Assembly (NCBI RefSeq): GCF_004765785.1
Contig: NZ_SBIT01000001.1
Location: 372,001-436,000 of the forward strand
Reading direction: 5' to 3'
DNA from: Halorussus ruber
GTDB taxonomy: Archaea; Halobacteriota; Halobacteria; Halobacteriales; Haladaptataceae
DNA length: 64,000 nt
Part shown: positions 25,547-63,726 of the stretch, in pieces
How positions within the stretch are numbered: the stretch's first letter is position 1
Layout of the letters: every line of letters starts with the position of its first letter
Position numbers and translations under genes: made by a program
The notes under the pieces: generated by a model
Databases searched by the model: none
What the model saw: only the letters and a program-made list of their open reading frames with translations
What the model was told of the DNA's origin: nothing

Positions 25547-25700
25547 GGCGCGCGCTGGCGCGGCTTTATGCCGCGCCATCGTCGCGCGAGGGACGAGCAA
25601 CGCAGGCCACAGGCCGAGTAGCGCAGGAGGTTGGGGAGGTGTGAGGGCCGTGCTGTGCGGTGCTGTGCGGTAGACGCCTCGGCTCAAGCCTGAAGCTAGC
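25547..25700 (+). repeat. Dispersed repeat family C, copy C1
   Basis: An intergenic element running from GGCGCGCGCTGGCGC to GCCTGAAGCTAGC. It includes a hairpin with arms TGGCGCGGC and GCCGCGCCA around TTTAT (25556-25578), the box TCGCGCGAGGGACGA, and GGTTGGGGAGGTGTGAGG followed by TGCTGTGCGGT. The same ends and boxes recur at 37795-37965, in inverted orientation at 39836-40091, and in part at 43677-43767. No reading frame spans it. Confidence 0.75.
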
Positions 25701-37794: not shown

Positions 37795-37965
37795 GGCGCG
37801 TGGGCCGCGCGCAGAACTGCGCGCGGCCTCGCGCGAGGGACGAACGACCGAACGAAGTGAGGGAGTGAGGAGGCTGGGGAGGCGTGAGGGTCCTGGGGAG
37901 GCCCGAGGTTCGCGGCCGCGGGGCGGTGCTGTGCGACAGACGCCTGTGTTCAAGCCGAACTAGCT
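37795..37965 (+). repeat. Dispersed repeat family C, copy C2
   Basis: This intergenic element fills most of 37761-38075. It begins GGCGCGTGGGCC, continues with a hairpin of 11-bp arms GGCCGCGCGCA and TGCGCGCGGCC around GAAC (37803-37828), the shared box TCGCGCGAGGGACGA, then GAGGCTGGGGAGGCGTGAGG and GGTGCTGTGCGAC, and ends CAAGCCGAACTAGCT. It matches copy C1 in order and orientation. Confidence 0.7.
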
Positions 37966-45309: not shown

Positions 45310-45490
45310 GACCGGGGAAACCGCTGTAACTTCGAAAGCCCTTGCGCTCGGAACCGCAGGAGTAACCGGGACAGCAACGTCCTCGAAAGCCCTCGCACTC
45401 GGAACCGCAAGAGTAGATGGGACTGCAACGTCCTCGAAAGCCCTCGCACTCGGAACCGCAAGAGTAGATGGGACTGCAACGTCCTCGAAA
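45310..45490. repeat. 51-bp tandem repeat array
   Basis: About three and a half copies of a 51-bp unit (from CCCTCGCACTCGGAACCGCA through AGAGTAGATGGGACTGCAAC to GTCCTCGAAAG). The two central copies are identical and the outer ones diverged. Since 51 is a multiple of three, the minus strand reads as 17-residue peptide repeats, but composition and lack of start context argue against a gene. The last unit runs directly into composite element E2, whose left end (TCGAAAGCCCTCGC) is the same sequence. Confidence 0.85.
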
Positions 45491-45620
45491 GCCCTCGCGC
45501 GGTTCGCGGTCGCTCAGCGACATATCCTCGACTCACCTTCGCTTCGCTCGGTTCGTCTCGGATAGGGGTCGGCTGAGACGACCACGTACACGCGAACCGC
45601 GCTCGCCCTTTCAGTCCGCC
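45485..45620 (+). repeat. Composite hairpin element E2
   Basis: Outer 12-bp arms GCGCGGTTCGCG (45497-45508) and CGCGAACCGCGC (45591-45602) enclose nested stems CTCAGC/GCTGAG and TATCC/GGATA. A tip carries the loop TCGCTTCGCTC (45539-45549). The unpaired linker AGACGACCACG (45576-45586) precedes the right arm. Ends are TCGAAAGCCC and CCCTTTCAGTCC. Element E1 at 52821-52950 has the same layout with different paired bases. The remaining 45621-45694 holds nothing recognised. Confidence 0.8.
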
Positions 45621-47645: not shown

Positions 47646-49010
47646 CTACCCCAGAACCGCCGTGACCAGACTGGTCAGCGAGAACCCGGCCAGCGAGAGG
47701 AGGTTGACCGCGAGCGTGCCGACCAGAAAGAGGGGCAGAATCGTCCGGACCGACCAGAGCCACGCCGGGCCGACCGACCGGACCCGCGACCCCGCGCCGG
47801 TCGAGTACTCCGCGAGGGCGTCCTTGCCCAGCACCCACCCGACGAACACGAGGAATCCGGCGAGCCCGGCGGTCAGCATTAGGTCCACGAGCGTCCCCGC
47901 CACGAAGCCGAACAGCGCGGGATTCAGCGCGTTCGCGCTTCCGGTCAGCAGGACGAGGCCGGCGAGCGAGAGGGTCGCGGTCCGGCGCGAGATGTCGTGT
48001 TCGTCCACGAGGTACGCAACCGGAATTTCGAGCATGCTAATCGACGAGGAGAGCGCCGCGAGGACGATGACGCCGAAGAAGACGACCGCGAGGAACCGTC
48101 CGAGCGGAACCTGCGAGAACGCGCCCGCCAGACTCACGAACAGCGCGCCGGGACCGCCGCCGGAGGCCGCGGGACCGGTCAACTCGCCGAAGGTGGCGAA
48201 CAGCAGGGGGAAGACCACGAAGCCAGCGAGGACGCCGACGCCGGTGTTCAGCACCGCGATGAGGCTCCCGTCGGAGGCCAGATTGTGGTCGTCGCCGAGA
48301 TAGGAGGCGTAGGTAATCATCGTGCCGACGCCGAGTGAGAGGGTGAACAGCGCCTGTCCGGCCGCCGCGCCCAGCACGTCGAAGAAGTTCGCCCGGAGGT
48401 AGGCGGCGTCGAAGTCGAGGTAGAACGAGAGACCCGCGCCCGCTCCAGGTCGGGTGACTGCCCAGCCAGCGAGCGCGACCAGCAGAATCACGATTGCGGG
48501 CATCATGATTTTGGTCGCCCTCTCGATGCCGTCTCGAATCCCGCCGACCACGACGAGGGCGGTCAGCGCGAGGAAGCCGACGTGGAAGCCGACCGCGCCG
48601 AGACCGTAGTCGATGGCCTTGAAGTACTCGCCCGGCGACCCGAAGTACCCGCCGGTGAAACTGGCGACGAAGTACCGGAGAATCCACCCGCCGACGACGC
48701 TGTAGAACGACAGTAGGACGATTGCGGTGACGACGCCGAAGAGGCCGACCGCGCCCCACGACTTCGACCCGGAGGAGAGCCGATAGAGCGCGCCCGCCGG
48801 GTTGCGCTGGGAGCGCCGCCCGATGACGAACTCCGCGAGCAGGCCGGGGACCCCGACCAGCAGGACGATTGCGAGATATACGACCAGAAACGCGCTCCCG
48901 CCGTTTTCGGCCGTCATCCAGGGGAAGCGCCAGACGTTACCGAGCCCGACCGCGCTCCCGACCGCGGCGAGGATGAAACCGAGGCGGGTGCGCCACGATT
49001 CACGTGTCAT
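47646..49010 (-). CDS. Sodium:neurotransmitter symporter (SNF/NSS) family transporter
   Basis: A 454-residue LeuT-fold secondary transporter with about eleven to twelve membrane helices. TM1 holds the Na+ and substrate-binding unwound segment GSAVGLGNVWRFPWMTAENG (about 15-34). TM6 and TM8 equivalents are QALFTLSLGVGTMITYASYL and FFGVIVLAALSSSISMLE. It imports an amino acid or related solute with Na+. The start 49010 (MTRESWRTRLGF) is preferred; upstream codons are non-coding. A paralogue lies 205 nt upstream on the same strand. Confidence 0.9.
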   Translation of the reverse strand: MTRESWRTRLGFILAAVGSAVGLGNVWRFPWMTAENGGSAFLVVYLAIVLLVGVPGLLAEFVIGRRSQRNPAGALYRLSSGSKSWGAVGLFGVVTAIVLLSFYSVVGGWILRYFVASFTGGYFGSPGEYFKAIDYGLGAVGFHVGFLALTALVVVGGIRDGIERATKIMMPAIVILLVALAGWAVTRPGAGAGLSFYLDFDAAYLRANFFDVLGAAAGQALFTLSLGVGTMITYASYLGDDHNLASDGSLIAVLNTGVGVLAGFVVFPLLFATFGELTGPAASGGGPGALFVSLAGAFSQVPLGRFLAVVFFGVIVLAALSSSISMLEIPVAYLVDEHDISRRTATLSLAGLVLLTGSANALNPALFGFVAGTLVDLMLTAGLAGFLVFVGWVLGKDALAEYSTGAGSRVRSVGPAWLWSVRTILPLFLVGTLAVNLLSLAGFSLTSLVTAVLG

Positions 49011-49214: not shown

Positions 49215-50549
49215 TTAGAAGTAGGCTCCCGACGCGAGGCCGGACGAGAGCGCCTTGACGCCGAGGTAGAGCGTCACGATGACGGCGACGGGGACGACGA
49301 GTCGGACCCACCACAGCCACGCCGAGGTGAACGAATCGCCGACGGACGACCCTCGACCGAGTTCGTCGATGGCCTCCCGGTCGGCGACCCAGCCGACGAA
49401 GACGGCCAGCAGCAGCACCGAGATGGGGAGCAGGAGCTTGAACACCAGGTCGTTGTAGAACCCGAGCCACGACGTGCCGAACGTCGCGGGCACGCCGATG
49501 AGAGCGATGAGACCGCCCATCGCCACGGCGGTCGTCGAACGCTTGTAGCCGTGGTTCTCGCTGACGTACGAAACCGGGACCTCCAGCAGGCTGATGGAAC
49601 TGGAGAGGGCCGCGAACAGCAGGATGGCGAAGAAGACGAAGCCGATGATGCCCCCCGCGGGCAGGCTACCGAACGCACCGGCGAGTGCGACGAACGCGGT
49701 TCCGGGACCGCCGCCTGCGCCCTCTGCACCGCCCGTGGCGAACAGAATCGGGAAGACCACGAAACCGGCCAGCAGCGCGATGAGGGTGTTGACGACCACG
49801 ATGGCTCCGCCGTCGGCCGGGAGGCTGTCGTCGCGGCCGAGGTACGACGAGTAGGCGATCATGACGCTGAACCCGAGCGAGAGGGTGAAGAAGGCCTGAC
49901 CCATCGCGGGCGGGACGATAGAGCCGAAGTTACTGGCGATGACGCCGAAGTCCGGCGAGAGGTAGTAGCTGTAACCCTCGGTCGCGCCGTCGAGCGTCGT
50001 CGCCCAACCGGCGAGCGCGACGAGGAGAACCAGCACGCCGGGAATCATGACCTTGGTCGCGCGCTCGATGCCGTCGGTGACGCCGGAGGCCACGATGCCG
50101 ATGGTCAGCAGCATGAAGACGAGGTGGCCGCCGATAGCGGTCGGCCCCGAGGCGACGGACCCGAAGTAGGCTCCGGCGTCGGCGAAGTACGCGCCGGTCG
50201 CGCTACCGACGATGTAGCTCAGGACCCAGCCGCCGACGACGCTGTAGAACGACAGCGTGATGAGCGACGAAAACAGGCCGAGGCCGCCGGTGAACGACCA
50301 GTTATTGTATCCGATTTTGCCGAAGGAGGCGACGGGGTTCTGCTCGCCGCGCCGACCGATGACGAACTCGACCATCATGGTCGGGAAGCCGATGAGGAAG
50401 ACGGCCGCCAAGTAGACCACGAGGAAGGCCGCGCCGCCGTTCGCTGCGGTCTGGAAGGGGAAAGACCAGATGTTCCCGAGTCCGACCGCGCTCCCGACCG
50501 CGGCGAAGATGAATCCTATCCGACTCGTCCATGTCTCGCGTTGTGCCAT
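49215..50549 (-). CDS. Sodium:neurotransmitter symporter (SNF/NSS) family transporter, paralogue
   Basis: A 444-residue paralogue of the gene at 47646. It has TM1 motif GSAVGLGNIWSFPFQTAANG, TM6 QAFFTLSLGFSVMIAYSSYL and TM8 AILLFAALSSSISLLEVPVS. Compared with its neighbour, TM1 has SFPFQT where the other has RFPWMT, which could change substrate choice. The short C-terminus matches prokaryotic NSS proteins. It is part of a likely two-gene transcript or tandem duplication. Confidence 0.9.
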   Translation of the reverse strand: MAQRETWTSRIGFIFAAVGSAVGLGNIWSFPFQTAANGGAAFLVVYLAAVFLIGFPTMMVEFVIGRRGEQNPVASFGKIGYNNWSFTGGLGLFSSLITLSFYSVVGGWVLSYIVGSATGAYFADAGAYFGSVASGPTAIGGHLVFMLLTIGIVASGVTDGIERATKVMIPGVLVLLVALAGWATTLDGATEGYSYYLSPDFGVIASNFGSIVPPAMGQAFFTLSLGFSVMIAYSSYLGRDDSLPADGGAIVVVNTLIALLAGFVVFPILFATGGAEGAGGGPGTAFVALAGAFGSLPAGGIIGFVFFAILLFAALSSSISLLEVPVSYVSENHGYKRSTTAVAMGGLIALIGVPATFGTSWLGFYNDLVFKLLLPISVLLLAVFVGWVADREAIDELGRGSSVGDSFTSAWLWWVRLVVPVAVIVTLYLGVKALSSGLASGAYF

Positions 50550-52652: not shown

Positions 52653-52820
52653 GGAAGTGGGTACGCGGTTGTGGCTGATAAAGTCGGACGGTGAAGTCAA
52701 ATCTGACAGTCGGAAGGCTCGGCGGCGACTGATAACTCAGCAGAGAGCGTTTCTTGAAGCCGCTTCCCGGTCGCTCTGCATGGCTACAGCTACGACAGCA
52801 ACTGAGGTGGTGAACGTTTT

Positions 52821-52950
52821 TTGAAGCCCCCGCCCGGTCGCGGTCGCTGAGCAGGATATTCGGGGCCTCTCCGCACAACCCGGCCCCGAATAGTTGCCTG
52901 CTCAGACGACCACGGGTCTCCGACCCGCGACCGGGCGGCCCCTTCATCCA
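52821..52950 (+). repeat. Composite hairpin element E1
   Basis: Outer 14-bp arms CCGCCCGGTCGCGG (52830-52843) and CCGCGACCGGGCGG (52925-52938) enclose CTGAGCAGG/CCTGCTCAG (52847-52855, 52897-52905) and then ATTCGGGGCC/GGCCCCGAAT (52858-52867, 52882-52891). The unpaired linker AGACGACCACG is at 52904-52914. Ends are TTGAAGCCCC and CCCCTTCATCC. Same architecture as E2 with different stem bases. The rest of 52653-53075 holds no gene. Confidence 0.85.
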
Positions 52951-53075
52951 CCCACACTGTCGGCTGTCAGGCCGAGCGCATCCTCAGTGGTTCGGTCAGT
53001 CGAGCGTACCCTCGGCGGCTGATTCACCGAGCGCATCCGCGGCGGTTGGGTCGCCGGGCGCACCCACACCCGGAC

Positions 53076-59460: not shown

Positions 59461-59533
59461 GGGATGAAGGGGCCGCCCGGTCGCGGTCACGCGAGGGAAC
59501 CGAGCGTGACCGCGACCGGGCGGGGGCTTCAAG
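59461..59533 (-). repeat. Hairpin element E3 (short form of E1, inverted)
   Basis: A perfect 20-bp stem (59473-59492 with 59504-59523) closes the 11-nt loop GAGGGAACCGA. That loop is one base from the complement of the third birA hairpin loop. Flanks GGGATGAAGGGG and CGGGGGCTTCAAG are the ends of element E1 in reverse. The stem begins CCGCCCGGTCGCGGTC, as E1 does. It lies in the 490-nt gap between ychF and the zinc-ribbon gene. Confidence 0.9.
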
Positions 59534-63618: not shown

Positions 63619-63726
63619 TCGAAAGTCCTCGCGCGGTTCGCGGTCGCCGGAAGACAAACTGCGTCTTCCGAGGTCACCCTCGCTCCGCTCGCGTGACCGC
63701 GCCCCGCGCTCGCTCTTTCAGTCCAC
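63619..63726 (+). repeat. Composite hairpin element E5
   Basis: Ends TCGAAAGTCCTCGCGCGG and CGCTCTTTCAGTCC match element E2. Inside are two hairpins: CGGAAGAC-AAACTGC-GTCTTCCG (63648-63670) and GGTCACCC-TCGCTCCGCTC-GCGTGACC (63672-63698, one mismatch). The inner part thus joins the AAACYGC-loop and TCGCTTCGCTC-loop families in one element. The remaining 63536-63875 shows no gene. Confidence 0.85.

Follow-up and report, generated by a model that had tools for sequence, protein, structure and literature searches.

A dispersed intergenic repeat of haloarchaea with variable, pairing-conserved stems and a predicted three-way-junction fold

What kind of element are the composite hairpins that recur in a 64,000-nucleotide stretch of the Halorussus ruber genome (here, the window)? 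From the sequence of the window, four of them (E1, E2, E3, and E5) had been proposed to be structures under selection, either a structured RNA or a single-stranded-DNA mobile element. We conclude that E1 and E2 are full copies of a dispersed intergenic cassette, one strand of which is predicted to fold as a three-way junction. The cassette has variable stems whose pairing is conserved, is patchy in its copies, lies between genes at sites of polymorphic occupancy, and spreads independently of its flanks. Direct reading of the sequence confirmed both composite hairpins in place (Table 1). The unit is 116 to 140 nt long (typically ~120 to 135 bp), with one arm of the outer stem S1 at each end, a long arm S2, and a short hairpin S3. 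Its kept ends are GAAG/GAAAG and CTTC/CTTTC; across copies, the ATAT/ATAG internal loop and the TCTCCGCACCGCCC apical loop are kept as unpaired motifs and GACGACC as a paired one. The junction of S1, S2, and S3 replaces the nested two-stem core originally described. The sequence AGACGACCACG is indeed common to E1 and E2, with exactly two occurrences in the window, but it is mostly paired and not the unpaired linker it was taken for: in E1, 8 of its 11 bases are paired (CGACC with the left GGTCG), one A is bulged, and two junction bases are unpaired. The fold of E1 has z = -10 with RNA and -9 with DNA parameters and that of E2 z = -4.5 and -3.8, respectively; under both parameter sets, S3 is well formed in E1 and almost missing in E2. 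A near-twin of E2 (98% identical, with unrelated flanks) lies at contig C1:318298-318434.

Table 1. Cassette features and accompanying repeats, by position in the window
Feature	Position	Strand	Basis
E1 core, whole three-way-junction cassette, subfamily 1, GAAGCCCCCGCCCGGTCGCG...CGCGACCGGGCGGCCCCTTCATCC	52823..52949	+	read directly, fold, covariance model
E1 foot, GAAG paired with CTTC across an unpaired 3/3 internal loop	52823-52826 / 52942-52945		fold
E1 S1 left arm (partner 52927-52938)	52830..52841	+	fold
E1 long arm S2	52842..52911	+	fold, covariation
E1 S2 base pairs, GGTCG/CGACC; A 52906 bulged	52842-52846 / 52907-52911	+	fold
E1 S2 further pairs	52847-52855 / 52897-52905 and 52857-52867 / 52882-52892	+	fold
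E1 S2 internal loop	52856 / 52893-52896	+	fold
E1 S2 apical loop, 14 nt, conserved, TCTCCGCACAACCC	52868-52881	+	fold, covariation
E1 short hairpin S3, GGGTC-TCC-GACCC; bottom-strand loop GGA	52914..52926	+	fold
Single left-flank unit before E1, TTGAAGCCGCTTCCCGGTCGC...GTGAACGTTTT	52754..52822	+	
Tandem right-flank units after E1, about 27 bp, ..CCGAGCGCATCC.CGGCGG..	52950..53062	+	
E2 core, whole cassette, subfamily 2, GAAAGCCCTCGCGCGGTTCGCG...CGCGAACCGCGCTCGCCCTTTCAGTCC	45487..45617	+	read directly, fold, covariance model
Tandem left-flank units before E2, 51-bp period, 3.3 copies	45332..45486 (array to 45498)	+	
E3, ends and S1 as in E1, interior swapped for a single perfect hairpin	59462..59531	-	model score, fold
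E5, subfamily-2 ends, other two-hairpin interior: GGAAGACAAACTGCGTCTTCC, then GAGGTCAC..GTGACC	63621..63724	+	model score, fold
Members of the second repeat family	25583-25639 and 37830-37882	-	

E3 and E5 hold up as elements in that they have the outer stem and ends in common with E1 and E2, but their interiors differ and they are not full copies. Over 78 bp, E3 does not differ from a copy at contig C2:72868-72945. The cores may also carry flanking arrays: some are preceded by one to three ~50- to 65-bp units, each a repeat of the left S1 strand, and most have one to six units of ~27 to 30 bp on the right. At E2, each left-flank unit bears the left S1 strand, that is, the left end of the element, without its partner strand. 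Smaller inserts of 50 to 60 bp, composed of two hairpins and a short linker, lie within or beside copies at nine loci (L002, L148, L149, L056, L093, L118, L131, L035, and L053); many end in ACACC or ACCAA, their stems vary, and they resemble yet smaller mobile repeats. Elsewhere in the window, a 167-nt direct repeat with 71% identity (positions 48193-48359 and 49735-49901) is probably paralogous coding sequence.

The host genome also contains at least 58 exact-pattern copies of a second structured repeat family, CCTCCCCARCC-hairpin-TCCCTCGCGCG-hairpin-CGCGCGCC, in which both hairpins vary. In Halosimplex, 42 of 45 cores are followed by it at a distance of no more than 650 nt, and elsewhere it stands alone; only 15 of the 148 host cores have a CCTCCCCARCC module at most 450 nt downstream. 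We therefore rejected this module as the cassette's other end and regard it as a separate family.

The cassette itself is abundant in its host. Whereas a reversed control occurs 5 times in the 4.32-Mb genome, AGACGACCACG occurs 126 times, and E2 and E1 as queries each identify at least 40 candidate places. A covariance model was built from 44 host-genome copies, with E1 and E2 in the training set and E3 and E5 left out; it scores E1 at 134 bits, E2 at 95, E3 at 45, and E5 at 29. The search with this model recovers at least 148 cassette copies, with a few more on searching loci, and the host analyses were made on the stretches around copies. By a simple codon-usage gene finder, 143 of 148 cores are intergenic. 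Neighboring genes are oriented (-,-) in 53 cases, (-,+) in 36, (+,-) in 27, and (+,+) in 27; the cassette thus shows no fixed orientation to genes of the kind expected for a leader, a terminator, or a 3' element, only a mild excess of (-,-) over (+,+).

Beyond the host, the distribution is wide and patchy. Within the family, 23 of 28 genomes carry the cassette, the range being 0 to at least 121 copies per genome; within the order, 97 of 392 sampled genomes do so, representing 32 of 95 genera (E <= 1e-7). Copies in other families have the same unpaired motifs and other stems. Within Halorussus, the genomes with no copy (G019) and one copy (G017), compared with 28 to 148 in the others, form a natural contrast in which to look for the gene responsible. 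Scanned for a motif, named genomes gave many matches in Halosimplex pelagicum and Halosimplex carlsbadense, several Halorussus, and a Haladaptatus plasmid; a plasmid search found two Halorussus replicons only. Viral contigs scanned for the conserved S2 motif gave 0 matches, and E1 was found in none of the phage records searched. The search of the host and other haloarchaeal genomes called for in the original prediction thus uncovered many further copies with the same layout. A search of the open-access literature found no description of the family, which is apparently so far undescribed.

Conservation of pairing was assessed in a main alignment of 114 distinct rows fitted to the covariance model. 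There, 89.7% of cells at paired positions are paired, against 76.4% after shuffling and 32 to 46% with slid partners; 36 of 46 pairs are altered on both sides, and double changes number 644 versus 230 when shuffled, counts that are not independent events because some rows are related. As a model-fitted alignment leans to the structure, a plain, structure-free MAFFT alignment served as a guard, and it points in the same direction (134 versus 51). Covariation beyond the shuffled and slid controls in both alignments bears out the claim of a structure under selection. Between very close paralogues, most differences are single changes (double/single ratio of 0.14), and the ratio reaches 1.6 by 8 to 12% divergence, a rise in keeping with ordinary compensation or with one arm being repaired from the other. 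A simultaneous template switch as the sole source of double changes is not supported, as the closest pairs show mostly single changes. In orthologous Halosimplex copies, whose flanks are 83 to 92% identical, the differences are blocks of compensating changes in the stems.

The best-matching pairs of copies have cores 91 to 98% identical and 60-nt flanks as unlike as those of random pairs; for the full set of 238 pairs exceeding 86%, flanks average 0.62/0.65, compared to 0.60/0.63 for random pairs. Such dissimilar flanks around near-identical cores indicate that the core moves or is converted alone, as a discrete cassette, and gene conversion instead of transposition could be the source of this similarity. 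At four sites compared between species, the gene interval is empty in several and holds a full core in others. The E1 site is empty in five species and filled in one, with no clear target duplication seen there, and sites A to C are empty, filled, or S1-only; in two cases, the interval has the outer hairpin alone or a remnant. Occupancy is therefore polymorphic between related species, although the empty sites could be losses, gain and loss not being told apart because the species tree of the genus lacks resolution in the window. With at least 148 copies, a patchy distribution, filled and empty sites, and cassette-like spread, the suggestion of a mobile repeat without a published description is sustained.

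Which strand folds, and as which nucleic acid, can be approached through its mismatches. If the + strand acted as a selected RNA, it should tolerate G.U better than A.C. When 136 copies are folded with Watson-Crick pairs only, the isolated mismatches of the + strand are 8 G.T and 40 A.C, whereas folding the other strand gives 39 and 9. G.T is rarer than A.C on the top strand, and thus the wobble sits on the bottom strand. Against an even prior, this gives P = 2e-6; the test is weaker if the top strand intrinsically undergoes G-to-A more often than C-to-T, with P = 5e-4 for an excess of ~1.5:1, as in the apical loop columns, and P = 0.12 for a 3:1 prior, the ratio over all unpaired columns. A small replicate in other genomes gives 2 versus 8 (P = 0.11). 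The bottom strand is also the better folder in 125 of 136 copies with RNA parameters and in 105 of 136 with DNA parameters. Loops of the GNA and GNNA types with a C-G closing pair have unusual stability in DNA, whereas GNRA is an RNA preference. On the bottom strand, 47 of 86 S3 loops are C(GNA)G and 13 are C(GNNA)G, none of the 13 being GNRA; these 13 share one common stem and therefore represent few independent events. The same 47 triloops read as UNCG tetraloops on a top-strand RNA. The combined pattern is suggestive, favoring a bottom strand (complementary to E1 as written here) that folds as DNA over a top-strand RNA.

These results bear on the alternatives to different degrees. Chance GC-rich inverted repeats, which a GC-rich genome with many hairpins might supply, have next to no probability left, since they are refuted by the repeated layout and by covariation far beyond the controls; neither a lack of further copies nor covariation at the level of such repeats, the outcomes named as refuting the original prediction, was found. 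The structured-RNA alternative in that prediction survives as a somewhat unlikely reading, in which a non-coding RNA, or a cis-acting leader or trailer RNA, is made from one strand of many copies and its fold is selected. Strong covariation, conserved loops and bulges, stable folds, and the UNCG-type S3 loops of the top strand would all suit it. However, the strand test opposes a top-strand RNA, as its G.T wobbles are rarer than its A.C mismatches, opposite to expectation, and for a bottom-strand RNA the preference for GNA/GNNA loops and the lack of GNRA among the 13 tetraloops are not expected. The inconsistent gene orientation and the range from 0 to at least 148 copies among close species also argue against an RNA, as does a search of Rfam 15 with 15 cassette-bearing loci, in which no match to the cassette appeared and nothing but a tRNA and an S15 leader exceeded the gathering score. 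The latter two, an ordinary tRNA and S15-Halobacteria ribosomal protein leader, lie near one copy (L003, 1218-1289 and 2048-2159).

A structural DNA site that serves the host (in the nucleoid, in supercoiling, or as a transcription boundary) and is copied mainly by gene conversion appears improbable to us. Its many intergenic copies, with cores that homogenize independently of their flanks, and the orthologous Halosimplex sites that retain the element while its stems are rewritten would be in keeping with such a role; the close relatives with 0 to 1 copies, the sites empty in related species, and the absence of a preference for convergent gene ends are not. More improbable still is a PATE, that is, a transposase-free IS200/IS605 derivative mobilized in trans by TnpA, although PATEs are abundant and palindrome-bearing in one haloarchaeon (PMC3119063), the single-strand asymmetry suits single-stranded-DNA transposition, and the host genome has seven Y1 loci. 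Across the 28 genomes, which have 0 to 6 Y1 transposase genes each, copy number is uncorrelated with Y1 number (rho = 0.04), and seven genomes with 28 to 97 copies carry no Y1 protein. TnpB counts likewise show no relation to copy number by inspection, and the covariance model detects no core within 1.5 kb of the seven host Y1 loci (a sub-threshold 13-bit match only). A survey of complete genomes reported only ordinary IS200 TnpA, and no REP transposase, in archaea (PMC6006769). The search for a cognate TnpA/RAYT gene thus came back without a linked Y1 gene in host or family genomes. The lack of correlation, the high-copy genomes free of Y1, and the core-free Y1 loci make an IS200/IS605 mechanism unlikely; the PATE reading is largely refuted, the proposed handling of a PATE- or REP-like element by such a transposase is not borne out, and the enzyme behind the cassette is probably not an IS200/IS605 TnpA.

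Our preferred explanation, which taken whole we consider about evenly balanced between right and wrong, is a structure-defined repeat with a bottom-strand single-stranded-DNA fold, movement or rewriting through a reading of its shape, and S1 hairpins as hosts. The folded and recognized strand would be the reverse complement of E1, acting as single-stranded DNA. A trans-acting putative recombinase may move or rewrite the cassette, reading shape and not letters; alternatively, a hairpin-templated copying or conversion process might do the reading. Intergenic S1 hairpins would be the hosts, within which the interior is exchanged (a simple loop, a single hairpin, or the full three-way junction). 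The S1-only hairpins at orthologous sites, which are not known PATEs, suggest this role. Only tentatively do we propose a class of archaeal mobile DNA defined by single-strand shape and exchanged in host hairpins by a putative non-Y1, shape-reading enzyme; if true, such an enzyme would bring a new principle to archaeal DNA mobility. In any case, haloarchaea gain a large repeat family of conserved structure that is apparently undescribed, and with its hundreds of copies one can test directly whether RNA or DNA folds, which strand is chosen, and whether the cassette transposes or is converted. The family is also a warning that strong covariation by itself is no proof of an RNA gene.

Several known systems invite comparison. 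Pneumococcal BOX elements are, like the cassette, modular, with tandem subunits beside a folded core, although their sequence and fold are unrelated. The attC sites of integrons act as folded single-stranded hairpins with a strong bottom-strand preference (PMC6393395), but they belong with an integrase, R/L boxes, and a cassette array; the likeness is one of principle only. REP/BIME elements with TnpA-REP (RAYT) are also intergenic, palindromic, present in >100 copies per genome, and thought to move as single-stranded DNA (PMC3733652, PMC2817692, and PMC8266576). However, REPs are 20 to 40 bp long and bear a GTAG or CGTC tag on one of their ends, whereas the cassette is a three-armed unit of more than 100 nt; it has neither the tagged short palindrome nor a cognate TnpA-REP in the genome. 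The PATEs of Haloquadratum walsbyi resemble the cassette in being haloarchaeal, non-coding, multicopy, palindromic, heterogeneous in sequence, and polymorphic in their sites (PMC3119063). They differ in having near-terminal IS605-like palindromes, whereas the cassette is one whole three-way junction, lacks IS605-type ends, and neither co-occurs with nor is related to the Y1 loci, being present in Y1-free genomes. Together with PATEs and bacterial REPs, the nearest described kinds include the SMR-A elements of Haloquadratum (HqIRS42/43/55), which are about 110 bp long with prominent inverted ends, a size and ends that the cassette shares; they reach 54 copies, insert into other elements, and are mobilized in a way called enigmatic (PMC3119063). 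A high similarity, commonly over 95%, is described for SMR-A copies, and their targets are the near-terminal palindromes of PATE/IS605 elements; cassette copies diverge strongly with compensatory change, lie between genes, and are themselves invaded by the small double-hairpin inserts; it is by description, not sequence, that the two are set apart. As far as tested, the cassette belongs to none of the kinds compared and behaves like a repeat that is moved or converted through a reading of its structure.
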